This document shows, one piece after another, positions 6,390 through 38,722 of a stretch of DNA of 56,270 nucleotides; within the stretch, counting starts at the first letter, position 1, and each line of letters begins with the position of its first letter. Source of the stretch: Planctomycetota bacterium (lineage in GTDB: Bacteria; Planctomycetota; Phycisphaerae; UBA1845); the NCBI GenBank assembly GCA_024276605.1, contig JAJRWX010000088.1:1-56270 (forward strand). The letters run 5' to 3'. The translations under genes were made by a program, and so were the position numbers. Under the pieces are notes generated by a model. That model ran no database searches, was not told the DNA's origin, and saw only the letters and a program-made list of their open reading frames with translations.

Positions 6390-7103
6390 TTACTTTTTAT
6401 ATTTCACCGAGCACCCATACTGCTTCGTCTTGGCCACAGCCACGGCTGATCCCTTCAGCAGTGACGTCACGGCTTCCTCTACATAATTTCGGGGATGGTC
6501 GCTTGATCCCATCGGATCATCATCAATCGCACCGGTATAGGCTAAGTTACCTTTTTGATCAATCACGAACATGTGCGGCGTAGACTTGGCGTCATACATA
6601 TGACCAACCATGCCGGAGGCGTCCATTAACACCGGGTAGGTGATATCGTTCTTTTTCATCCAAGCCCGAGCGCCTTCAATTTTTTATTCACTATAATAGC
6701 TGGAGTCGATACCCAACCAGGCTACGGGTTGACCAGCGAACTTGGCAAACGTCTTCTGCATGGTTTTCTTTGTGCCTTGATGGCGAACCACAAACGGACA
6801 AGTATGGTTTGTCCATTCAAGCACGACAACCTTGCCTTTCAAGTCTGATAGTTTGTATGTCTTGCCGTCGGTTCCGGTAAGTGCGAAATCCGGAGCCGGA
6901 TGACCGAGCGATGCCTGTGTCGCTTTGCCATGTCCGTGTCCGGCGTGCTCGTGACCCGCCTGCTCACTAGGTTGATGAGCGGCAGTTGATTCAGCTTGGC
7001 CTTTCTTGCTGGCATGTTTGTCACAGACACCATAAGCCGTCCAGGCGGGGACTGCTACAACCAGCAGCGCGACAATCAACCAACTCTTACGTACATTCAT
7101 CAT
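6390..7103 (-). pseudogene. Redoxin (PRX_like1-type) lipoprotein-like gene with in-frame TAA
   Basis: One reading frame spans the region from the ATG at 7103 (GGAGAG upstream) to 6390 but is cut by a TAA at 6684-6686. Before the stop lie a signal peptide, a His-rich linker and a redoxin domain with GHPAPDFALTGTDG and EWTNHTCPFVVRHQ, the WxNxxCPFV site typical of the PRX_like1 branch. After the stop the same frame continues as KIEGARAW, then YPVLMDASG, STPHMFVIDQKG, GAIDDDP and a final KQYGCSVKY, all expected in the family. The product would be about 237 residues. The second half has no ribosome binding site. Either the gene is dead, or the A-run after the stop hides a sequencing error. TAA is not a selenocysteine codon. 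Confidence 0.75.
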
Positions 7104-7347
7104 CTGATCTCTCCATAACAATCATGGCCCTATTTCGCACCGACGACTACCTGCCGACGGCGACCCCCAAACATCCGTCATACGTGGCGCCATTCACGCC
7201 ACGCACCAATCGGGTATTATCCTGAAGACTCGGCTCCGATGCTAGTGGTTGATTACCTTTAATCCGATTTGACCAGTGTGGCTTTCGTGAAATCATGCTA
7301 AAACGTGTAGAGGAAAGCAATTACGTCAATGGGCAAAGATTGATGAT

Positions 7348-35231: not shown

Positions 35232-36547
35232 CTACATTAGCCGTCAAGAAAAACGACATGGCGTTTTGTCCCGGATGCTCGCACGGTATGGTCTTAGAGC
35301 ACCTAAGTGCAGCATTAGACCGGATGAAGCTTACGCCGACGGACGTTTGCATCGTCTCCGACATCGGTTGCATTGGCATCTCAGATCGGTATCTCGATAG
35401 CCACACGTTTCACGGCTTGCATGGCCGATCGATCACCTACGCGGAAGGCATCAAACGTGCCCGACCGGATTTAACCGTCGTCGTGCTCATCGGCGATGGC
35501 GGGTGTGGCATCGGCACTGCCCATCTGGTGCATAGCGCGCGGCGCGGCGCCGACATTACCGTCATTGTGTGTAACAACTTCAACTTCGGCATGACCGGCG
35601 GTCAGCATTCGGCTACGACACCGGTGTGCGCTCAGACCCCCACCACCCCAAACGGTGCGACCGACTATCCGTTCGACGTGTGCCAAACTGTCGGCGCCAA
35701 CGGTGCATCTTACGTGGGCCGCTTCACCGCGTTCGACAAAGACCTACCCCAGCGCTTGGAGACGGCTATTCGTACGCCCGGGTTTTCATTGCTCGACACG
35801 TGGGAACTCTGCGTCGCATATTATACGGAGCGTAACCCACTCAACCGCAAGACACTGTCGGAGTTGTCTGACTCGATGGAGCTACCGTTAGGAGAACTTT
35901 ACAACCGACCGCGACCGCCACATCCCGCCGAACCGGCATCGCGCAGCGCCATATCCAAGACGACTGAGCCATCGAATAACCGCGCCCCGATCACTTTGTC
36001 ATGGCCGCGCCGCACGGAGTTCTGCGTCGCCGGGTCAGCCGGTCAGCGCATTCTCTCAGCCGTCGGCGTCATCGGTAAACTCGCGGTAGCAGGCGGATTA
36101 CACGCCGCCCAGTCGGACGATTTCCCCATTACCGTTAGCCGAGGGCACTCGGTTTCGAATCTCATTCTCTCAGACAAGCCGATTTTCTATACCGGCGTGG
36201 ATAATCCGGAGCTACTGCTGGTGCTCACCGAGGACGGCGTCCGCCGCGTCAAGTTATGGGAAAGGCTTTCGCCTCATGCGCTCGTGTTGGCAGAGACCTC
36301 CCTGAATCTTCCGGATACGCCCGCGCAAATCGAACGAATCAACTGCAAAACCGCCGAAAAGCTCGTCGGTAAACCCTCAGCTGCACTAGCGCTATTGAGC
36401 TACGCAATCGTGCGCGGTCAGTGGCTTGATGAAAATCGTTTCCGTGCCATCGCCGAGGCAGGCATCCGCGGTAAGTATCGAGAAGACAACCTAAAAGCCA
36501 TTGACGCGGGCATAAATCTCGCCCACACCGGCTTTGAGAGCGCGTAA
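35228..36547 (+). CDS. 2-oxoacid:acceptor oxidoreductase, fused beta-gamma subunit
   Basis: 439 residues in two parts. The beta part (1-240) begins MAFCPGCSHGMVLEHL, has SDIGCIGISDRYL, the TPP motif LIGDGGCGIG, and NNFNFGMTGGQHSATTP. The gamma part (from about 260) begins FCVAGSAGQRILSAVGVIGK, with a SRGHSVSNLILS loop and DNPELLLVL, i.e. the Rossmann-like gamma subunit. In the usual fusion, seen at 22121, gamma is joined to alpha. Here it is attached to beta. Cys residues that bind Fe-S are limited to the CPGC of beta. Confidence 0.85.
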   Translation: MTTLAVKKNDMAFCPGCSHGMVLEHLSAALDRMKLTPTDVCIVSDIGCIGISDRYLDSHTFHGLHGRSITYAEGIKRARPDLTVVVLIGDGGCGIGTAHLVHSARRGADITVIVCNNFNFGMTGGQHSATTPVCAQTPTTPNGATDYPFDVCQTVGANGASYVGRFTAFDKDLPQRLETAIRTPGFSLLDTWELCVAYYTERNPLNRKTLSELSDSMELPLGELYNRPRPPHPAEPASRSAISKTTEPSNNRAPITLSWPRRTEFCVAGSAGQRILSAVGVIGKLAVAGGLHAAQSDDFPITVSRGHSVSNLILSDKPIFYTGVDNPELLLVLTEDGVRRVKLWERLSPHALVLAETSLNLPDTPAQIERINCKTAEKLVGKPSAALALLSYAIVRGQWLDENRFRAIAEAGIRGKYREDNLKAIDAGINLAHTGFESA

Positions 36548-36566
36548 TTCAGGATGCACACATTTT

Positions 36567-36606
36567 AATGATTGCGGCTTGGTGCGTTTGGAGATGGGGT
36601 GTATGT
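36567..36606 (+). repeat. Direct repeat flanking the channel/nuclease cassette (left copy)
   Basis: 40 bases starting AATGATTGCGGCTTGGTG match 38618-38657 with three differences. The two copies flank an AT-richer two-gene segment. They may be the remains of an insertion or a duplicated attachment-like site. Confidence 0.7.
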
Positions 36607-36922
36607 TTCCCGATTACACTAATTTGATTCAAGCGGATCCAACTTTGCTGCTGAAAATCGCTCCAATTAACCAATCACATTGCCAACGGCTTGCGATGTA
36701 AGACGGTTGTGCCGACTGCGACAATTATCACAATTGTTACGGCCATTCACAAGGGTGAGATTGTAGGGATGGTGCCACTTGCGTCGGACTGATTGGGGGT
36801 TGCCTATGAAGAAAGCTTCAATCGTTTCACTACCAACTGTTTGGTCGATGCAGGACGCGCAGACAGGTGTCGAGAGATGGTATATAAATGTTCCTTGATA
36901 TGATGCAACTTGATACGAGGGT
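36607..36922. other. Gene-free spacer upstream of the channel gene
   Basis: About 300 bases after the left direct repeat. It has no reading frame I would defend, and should contain the cassette promoter. No clear -35/-10 pair is visible. Confidence 0.3.
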
Positions 36923-37687
36923 ATGCACGTGAGTCAGCCAAGTAGCACCTTAGTAGGAAAAGGAGAACAAACACTCGGAGTCTGGCAGTATTTTATGCTG
37001 CTGCTGAGTATTGCCTCCCTCGCCCTGCTTGCTGTCCAAACTTTTTTAGAAACCACTGGTAAAGAAACAAAGGCACTTGGAACCACTGACAATATTATAT
37101 GTCTCGTTTTCTTCGGAGATTTTATTTGGCAGCTCATCCATACCAAACCACGGCGTGCATATTTGAAATGGGGTTGGCTTGATCTAGTTTCCTCTATCCC
37201 TTTAATTCCGGCGTTTCGCGTTGCCCGATTGGCACGTATTGTGAGAATCATCCGTGTACTTCGCGGCGCGCGAGCGGCCAAAAACATCTTAACTATTCTT
37301 TTCATCCATCGTGCACGAAACACTTTTGCTGCGGTGGTATTTGGATCATTTATTCTCCTACTATTCTCTGCACTGGCTATCGTCATCGTGGAACCAACAA
37401 TGGCTCCAGAGGACGCTTTCTGGTGGTGTCTGTTCACACTTATCTCTGGTGAGTATGGAGATTATTATCCTTCATCGACTGAAGGTCGTATCATTACAGC
37501 TTTACTTATGACGGCAGGTGTTGCACTATTTGGAACATTTACAGCATCTGTGGCTTCCTTTTTTCTGGAAGAAGATCAGATTGAAGATGAACGACGAGAC
37601 GCTGACATCCTACATGAGATTAGCAAGTTGACTAAGGAAGTTTCTGAACTAAGAAAGCAGATGAAGGGAGACAATATACGTGGCTAG
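36923..37687 (+). CDS. Ion-transporter (voltage-gated potassium-channel-like) protein
   Basis: 254 residues with a six-helix channel layout. S1 is at about 20-40. S4 is AFRVARLARIVRIIRVLRG (about 97-115), with Arg every third or fourth residue as in voltage sensors. S5 is at about 135-155, the pore loop follows, and S6 is at 190-212. The pore reads FTLISGEYGDYYP (171-183). Related bacterial channels have TxxTVGYGD there, so Gly-Glu replaces Val-Gly in the filter. The C-terminal tail 216-250 is a charged coiled-coil-like helix. The gene overlaps the nuclease-like gene by eight bases. The start could be the ATG at 36923 or the GTG at 36929. Confidence 0.8.
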   Translation: MHVSQPSSTLVGKGEQTLGVWQYFMLLLSIASLALLAVQTFLETTGKETKALGTTDNIICLVFFGDFIWQLIHTKPRRAYLKWGWLDLVSSIPLIPAFRVARLARIVRIIRVLRGARAAKNILTILFIHRARNTFAAVVFGSFILLLFSALAIVIVEPTMAPEDAFWWCLFTLISGEYGDYYPSSTEGRIITALLMTAGVALFGTFTASVASFFLEEDQIEDERRDADILHEISKLTKEVSELRKQMKGDNIRG

Positions 37688-38516
37688 TATACCAAAAAAA
37701 ATAGTAGATCGGTTTGTAAAGCAGGTAACGCGATTTCAAAAAGTACTAACAATTGCAAAGAATCGAGATGTGAACGAGTCTGATACAGTAGCTGTACTGA
37801 CTGATATATTCAGTGATGTATTTGGTTTTGACAAGTATATTGAAGTGACTAGTGAAGTCGCAATTCGTGGCACGTATTGCGATCTTGCTCTTAAAGTGGA
37901 TGACAAAGTACAGTTTTTGATCGAAGCAAAAGCTGTTGGAATTTCGCTCAAAGAAAATCACATGAAACAAGCTTGTGATTACGGGGCTAATCACGGCGTG
38001 CAATGGGTTGTCCTTACGAATGCAATCGAATGGCGAATTTACCGCATCAAATTTGAACAACCTATAAACTATGATCTTGTTTGTACATTCGATTTTCTTG
38101 ATCTTAATCCCCGAACGCAAAAAGATCAGGAGTTTCTTTTCCTTCTAACGAAGGAAGCACTTGGCAAAAATGCACGTGAGGATTTCTATGAGAGAGTACA
38201 GAGTGTAAATCGTTACGTAGTTGGTAGCTTGATATTGTCTGAACCAGTCATGTCTGTAGTTCGAAGAGAACTCAAGAAACTAGCAGACGGAATCAGGATT
38301 GATATAGATGAAGTAGAACATCTAGTGAGAACTGAGGTTCTCAAGCGTGAAATCCTAGATGGTGAGGAAGCAGGTCTTGCTCGTGCAAGGGTCAGCAAAT
38401 TCTACCGCAAGAGTGCTTCTTCAAGCCGCAAGACAAAAAAGAAGGAGCCTCAACCTGCTGCTAAACCCTTAGCTACTGAGGAGTCCGTGACGGACAGACT
38501 TCTCCGCGAAGAATAA
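37680..38516 (+). CDS. HsdR_N-like PD-(D/E)xK domain protein
   Basis: A 278-residue protein starting at a GTG with GGGAG upstream, inside the end of the channel gene. Residues 30-130 match the type I restriction-enzyme N-terminal domain (HSDR_N_2). Glu33 is in DVNESDTVAVL, Asp68 in YCDLAL, and Glu82-Ala-Lys84 in FLIEAKA. The QACDYGANHGVQWVVLTN stretch gives a Gln-type motif. These are the expected catalytic residues for a PD-(D/E)xK nuclease. There is no helicase domain. The second half (140-278) is helical and charged, with a Lys-rich tail. Free-standing HsdR_N proteins are common and mostly uncharacterised. Confidence 0.85.
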   Translation: MASIPKKIVDRFVKQVTRFQKVLTIAKNRDVNESDTVAVLTDIFSDVFGFDKYIEVTSEVAIRGTYCDLALKVDDKVQFLIEAKAVGISLKENHMKQACDYGANHGVQWVVLTNAIEWRIYRIKFEQPINYDLVCTFDFLDLNPRTQKDQEFLFLLTKEALGKNAREDFYERVQSVNRYVVGSLILSEPVMSVVRRELKKLADGIRIDIDEVEHLVRTEVLKREILDGEEAGLARARVSKFYRKSASSSRKTKKKEPQPAAKPLATEESVTDRLLREE

Positions 38517-38617
38517 TAACCAATGACAAACATGCTTATATCAGTTGGACTTTCATGGCCTAAACATCAATGAGATAAATCTTGTCATACGTGGAGAATT
38601 CGGGGGCTACCCAATTC

Positions 38618-38657
38618 AATGATTGCGGCTTGGTGTGTTTGGGGATGTGGTGTATGT
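38618..38657 (+). repeat. Direct repeat flanking the channel/nuclease cassette (right copy)
   Basis: See the left copy at 36567-36606: 37 of 40 bases are identical. It lies about 100 bases after the nuclease-like gene and before the P-type ATPase gene. Confidence 0.7.
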
Positions 38658-38722
38658 CCGCCGAATAGACAATCGAATAGACCTAATACACCAGGAGCGC
38701 TTTACGCGTCGTCAACGGATCA

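Follow-up and report, generated by a model that had tools for sequence, protein, structure and literature searches.

In phage lambda, the rexAB genes lie directly downstream of cI and encode a DNA-binding protein, RexA, and a membrane protein, RexB, which damages the membrane when activated (PMC12894663). As found in lambda and in prophage 1 of P. putida, RexAB comprises two genes, one for a soluble nucleic-acid-type protein and one for a membrane protein, typically placed just after the CI repressor gene (PMC12894663). Zorya, Kiwa and SNIPE likewise couple membrane-embedded sensing to DNA-acting effectors (PMC12904381, PMC11890865). The planctomycete gene pair described here shares with these last three systems the layout of a membrane part and a DNA-acting part, but its components are different. 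RexB has been described as a small four-helix membrane protein and RexA binds DNA, whereas our pair encodes an Ion_trans channel and an HsdR-N-like protein, neither of which matches RexAB in sequence; RexA homology and a four-helix RexB are both missing. The membrane part is a MotAB-type motor in Zorya (ZorAB) and another kind of membrane protein in Kiwa (KwaA), and a six-helix voltage-sensor channel occurs in none of the three. In the window, by which we mean the whole 56,270-nucleotide stretch of DNA analysed, no PADLOC model for Zorya was matched, the membrane partner being an Ion_trans protein rather than a ZorA/ZorB motor, and no KwaA or KwaB model matched the pair or any other window gene. 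The open-access literature yielded no described system that combines a voltage-sensor channel with a nuclease of the PHROG 17239 type, although recent or subscription reports may exist.

The pair and its flanking repeats occupy the following positions in the window; DEXK is our short name for the PD-(D/E)xK protein of the pair and for its homologues.

36546-36619, forward strand: upstream copy of an imperfect direct repeat, 78% identical to the downstream copy
36923-37687, forward strand: channel gene, 254 amino acids, ATG start; Ion_trans protein with six helices and a C-terminal coiled-coil-like helix
37226-37282, forward strand: S4 voltage sensor, arginine at each third residue (R102, R105, R108, R111, R114, R117, R120)
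37436-37462, forward strand: selectivity filter TLISGEYGD (residues 172-180), in which Glu177 replaces the first Gly of the relatives' TTVGYGD
37680-37687, forward strand: 8-base overlap of the two genes, GTGGCTAG; the same overlap is present in the sister species (locus L031, 10001-10008)
37680-38516, forward strand: DEXK gene, 278 amino acids, GTG start; PHROG 17239, with an HsdR N-terminal-like nuclease lobe and a helical C-terminal half
37881-37931, forward strand: DEXK catalytic core, D68 (37881-37883), E82 (37923-37925) and K84 (37929-37931)
38597-38670, forward strand: downstream copy of the imperfect direct repeat, 78% identity over 74 nt

The original prediction described a six-helix voltage-sensor channel overlapping by 8 bases a gene for a protein with a full PD-(D/E)xK core and an extra helical half, set in an AT-richer stretch between direct repeats. 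Each element was borne out: the coordinates agree with the domain matches to Ion_trans (PF00520, E 1.4e-15) and HSDR_N_2 (E 2.2e-7), the core is conserved and the C-terminal half is modelled as helical (see below), and GC content is 0.446 in the channel gene and 0.412 in the DEXK gene against 0.524 in the whole window. A search of the window's own genome recovered only these two full-length copies of the flanking repeat, and the repeats were not found around the sister-species pair. A further 74-base stretch 5′ of the channel gene (36623-36696) has a 78% match elsewhere in the genome (G000:C2:26059-26132). Promoter and terminator scans at the pair scored no better than shuffled sequence.

The channel has the six helices, S4 arginine repeat and P-loop common to prokaryotic voltage-gated channels of the Kv, NaChBac and CNG types. 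Its AlphaFold2 model places S1 at residues 20-41, S2 at 47-73, S3 at 77-91, S4 at 96-115 and S5 at 130-156, followed by a pore helix (162-175) and an unbroken S6/C-terminal helix (186-253), and Foldseek searches with this model returned bacterial CNG and Kv channels. S4 arginines R102, R105 and R108 are invariant across 13 aligned channels. What sets the window channel apart is its genetic coupling to a nuclease and its filter, which reads SGEYGD rather than the TVGYGD of a K+-selective pore; the Glu177 change is common to the window and sister-species proteins, whereas other channels of the window type carry TTVGYGD. The nearest non-orthologous relatives, at 35-40% identity, are channels of prophages and viral contigs.

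DEXK belongs by its D...ExK core and fold to the PD-(D/E)xK/HsdR-N superfamily. The three core residues, together with Q97 and Y101 of a QxxxY motif, are invariant in 57 relatives, which leads us to infer nuclease activity. In a model with pLDDT 89, residues from about 12 to 170 match the nuclease lobes of BpuSI (Z 11.8), DrdV (11.5) and HsdR (11.2). DEXK shares this lobe with HsdR and the type IIG enzymes; at only 278 residues, however, it lacks their helicase, methyltransferase and specificity domains and has a helical C-terminal half of its own. Residues 1-256 align to positions 1-256 of the 259-position PHROG 17239 profile (E 3.5e-85), and all 21 members of that phage family that were scanned matched. 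PHROG lists neither a function nor a channel partner for the family. We rejected the idea that DEXK is a type I restriction enzyme or its remnant, as it has no helicase domains and no hsdM or hsdS nearby and is conserved as a stand-alone family. A toxin-antitoxin pair was likewise rejected, neither family fitting such a system.

The two genes recur together. In a survey of 114 genomes of the host's order, in which DEXK was sought by profile search and channels by Ion_trans, we found 16 strong DEXK genes and 24 full-length six-helix channels, the latter in 23 genomes. Eight genomes hold both, and in seven of these (G000, the window's genome; G414, the sister species; G423, G424, G396, G483 and G469) the genes are adjacent, against about 0.007 cases expected by chance in a calculation that assumes random gene placement; two of the seven, G423 and G424, were originally located via a channel search. 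A phylum-wide DEXK sample added two pairs (L038 and L052; genomes G011, convergent, and G029, DEXK then channel). Three more pairs came from viral contigs: in L177 DEXK precedes a channel gene that overlaps it, in L263 the two genes converge with 8 bp between them, and in L326 DEXK is followed by a channel, with an Abi_2 gene alongside and an integrase nearby. In L099 (G424:C115, 2672-3454), a DEDDh/RNase_T exonuclease gene stands between DEXK and channel in a tandem of three genes separated by 48 and 13 bases. In L253 (5766-6526, G469), DEXK is split over two frames, through either recent pseudogene formation or sequencing error. Beyond Planctomycetota the survey covered phages, plasmids and viral contigs; most of the surveyed genomes are drafts, and some of the contigs classed as viral may in fact be bacterial.

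Thus the pair is neither unique to the window nor unlinked in relatives, either of which would have told against the original prediction: the sister species carries it at another site, in addition to the adjacency across the order. Linkage recurs in the order, the phylum and viral contigs; gene order and orientation vary even within the order, as does the channel subfamily found beside one nuclease clade. This recurrence, with selection acting on both genes, led us to reject chance proximity or an annotation artefact, a reading that nothing we found favours and that we regard as scarcely credible.

The partnership is nevertheless not obligate, since most viral DEXKs and phage channels occur singly. 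A profile search placed a channel beside DEXK in just 1 of 79 viral-contig DEXK loci, and most phage channels lack DEXK. The window channel as a single query matched nothing in the viral contigs, whereas a channel profile found 80 loci.

A quick-type tree of 106 DEXK proteins, containing several long branches, shows how the partnership has changed. Labelling tips by the presence of an adjacent channel requires eight changes, at least six of them forced by well-supported branches. One clade with support of 99 (L099, L246, L064, L253, L243 and L245) has a channel beside every DEXK except that of L245, whose locus ends at a contig edge. These channels come from different groups: zinc-ribbon Kv (L099, L064), plain Kv (L253), the window type (L246, convergent, 41% identity) and NaChBac-like with a TGDDW filter (L243), in both tandem and convergent arrangements. 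That a nuclease should exchange its neighbouring voltage-sensor channel for a different one, as this tree suggests, is difficult to account for unless the two are functionally linked.

In the sister species the pair is intact, its channel being 78% and its DEXK 83% identical in protein sequence to those of the window. Values of dN/dS between the two species (0.15 for the channel, 0.07 for DEXK) point to purifying selection, so that both genes have been kept functional. The sister-species pair sits between TrhO-like and TruA blocks, which lie apart both in the window's genome and in that of a congener, G415. Neither orthologue was found in G415, the pair is also absent from most of the family, and a scan of the genome contigs with the single DEXK sequence matched only the sister species. 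A clean empty site was not found: in G415 (L072/L092, G415:C47), the oxidoreductase gene that precedes the pair in the window survives only as a 3′ remnant. Dispersed repeats of about 50 bases, seen at 7068-7175 and 10857-10945 of L031, recur dozens of times in all three genomes of the genus, and one copy directly follows the sister-species pair.

The neighbours of the window pair are metabolic genes, namely 2-oxoacid:ferredoxin oxidoreductase subunits and a P-type ATPase. Such surroundings would suit ordinary physiology, in which a channel for K+ or other cations that serves osmotic or voltage homeostasis happens to accompany a DNA-maintenance nuclease and neither has an anti-phage role. We consider this improbable, given the patchy presence of the pair, its different position in the sister species, its low GC content and the occurrence of its relatives on phages and plasmids. 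Proximity to known defence genes, which the original prediction had suggested testing, was not seen in the window: across its 35 ORFs, PADLOC matched only QueC-like and subtilase models, no known defence gene flanks the pair and no restriction-modification gene was detected at E 1e-5. For several other pairs, too, PADLOC named no system for channel or DEXK, and the exceptions elsewhere are the Abi_2 gene beside one viral-contig pair and the DEDDh exonuclease inside another pair.

A more telling context is provided by phages. No phage repressor adjoins the window pair, but many relatives do lie next to one of the CI type. In the 79 viral-contig DEXK loci fetched, the 63 upstream neighbours include 17 HTH_3 and 16 Peptidase_S24 proteins, and a repressor-type gene lies 5′ of DEXK in about one quarter of loci; the 61 downstream neighbours include five tyrosine integrases and four serine recombinases. 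Thermus phage Riverbug has the order LexA-like regulator, DEXK, two-helix protein, integrase. Of 49 genes that come next after a stand-alone phage DEXK, 22 specify a membrane or exported protein, compared with 17% of short ORFs on the same contigs (p 7e-6, with crude ORF calling). In L103-L181, this 3′ gene often specifies a small lipoprotein or a one- or two-helix protein, as in L104 (4347-4550; 67 residues, a helix and a coiled coil); these small proteins are perhaps alternative membrane partners. A DEXK 45% identical to that of the window is present on several Leptospira plasmids (L032, L033, Leptospira weilii), near HigB and DUF433/PIN-like genes of the toxin-antitoxin type.

Channels occupy the same phage territory. 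Dulem virus 33, Lactobacillus phage PLE2 and an Enterococcus phage share the order repressor, channel, integrase, and JNU_P5 has a repressor followed by a channel. Neighbours of viral channels (n=125) include 28 HTH_3 proteins, 14 ImmA-like M78 proteins, 21 tyrosine integrases and 3 Abi_2 proteins, and two relatives of the window channel (L261, L262) share an operon with S24-type repressors. Six-helix voltage-sensor channels are frequent between temperate-phage repressor and integrase genes (L183, L184, L185, L186 and L258-L337), mostly without DEXK. Two channels of the window type (L263, 4944-6673; L264, 4971-5735) lie instead beside apparent tape-measure genes. A KQT-like channel gene has been recorded in an Oenococcus prophage, with no function given (PMC9867325). 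The open-access literature held nothing directly on point about prophage channels in exclusion, though recent or subscription reports may exist, and the role of channels carried beside temperate-phage repressors appears to be undescribed.

This shared slot also invites another explanation, that the repressor-integrase interval is a cargo hotspot in which two independent exclusion genes are co-inherited without functional coupling. Each family is indeed found singly at that position, and per-genome co-occurrence of the two in the order survey is just moderately enriched (Fisher p 0.004). On two Firmicutes-type prophage contigs, the slot exactly holds a channel and an HsdR_N protein of about 350 residues, from a family related to yet distinct from DEXK, in opposite orders: cI, M78, a 354-residue HsdR_N protein, channel and integrase in L309 (3866-5732), and cI, channel, a 351-residue HsdR_N protein and serine recombinase in L328 (4896-6979). 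However, neither a phage repressor nor an integrase was seen in the flanks read around chromosomal planctomycete pairs, whose genes still remain adjacent despite changes of order and orientation; moreover, one channel subfamily gives way to another without loss of the channel as such, and the 8-base overlap is preserved in the sister species. We therefore judge uncoupled cargo to be rather unlikely.

We propose instead that the pair is a phage-derived, chromosome-resident and membrane-coupled two-gene exclusion module, in which the nuclease would act on incoming phage or other foreign DNA and the channel would be its membrane partner. Reasoning from sequence and predicted structure, we put the probability of this reading at roughly 0.48, just short of even. 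The repressor-side position, scattered occurrence and intact catalytic core suggest that the pair keeps out other phages or foreign DNA, and the lysogeny regions of phages are its likely source. In the proposed mechanism, a tetrameric voltage-sensor channel would contact DEXK, report or respond to the disturbance of the membrane as DNA enters, and hold or activate the nuclease there, where DEXK, as an HsdR-N-type enzyme, would cut the entering DNA; the channel might also contribute an ion leak of its own.

The division between sensor and effector could follow either Zorya and Kiwa or RexAB. In the latter arrangement, DEXK would mainly sense phage DNA or intermediates of replication, and the role of effector would fall to the channel, which would open, collapse the membrane potential and abort infection. 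The position of lambda rexAB just downstream of cI (PMC12894663) and the phage channels that fill the same slot without DEXK are consistent with this division, as is Glu177, which suggests altered selectivity in the window channel. Nonetheless, an invariant nuclease core would be superfluous in a pure sensor, and DEXK frequently occurs without any channel. We give the RexAB-like arrangement about half the weight of the favoured reading, making it a minority possibility. The nuclease is preferred as executioner because its core is invariant, it is often found without a channel, and a membrane or exported protein often lies next to its stand-alone copies.

A more specific and more speculative version of the exclusion module, which we would not expect to be correct in full, is a voltage-controlled nuclease immunity. 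Here, the S4 channel would read the depolarization at phage DNA entry and switch on a membrane-tethered PD-(D/E)xK nuclease, as a lysogenic-conversion module of temperate phages that has been exapted on bacterial chromosomes. We know of no immune system that relies on such a channel.

The locus was originally predicted to be a new defence or stress module. An anti-phage unit is now far better supported, by relatives in lysogeny and immunity regions, and the stress alternative did not gain in the same way; the defence reading has moved from a guess to a well-supported hypothesis, albeit one drawn from comparative genomics. More broadly, the pair links two unexplained facts, the presence of six-helix voltage-gated channels beside the repressors of many temperate phages and that of the widespread PHROG 17239 proteins in the same place. 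Its recurrence offers both families a testable function, the exclusion of other phages. If this proposal is true, voltage-gated channels would enter the repertoire of bacterial immunity.
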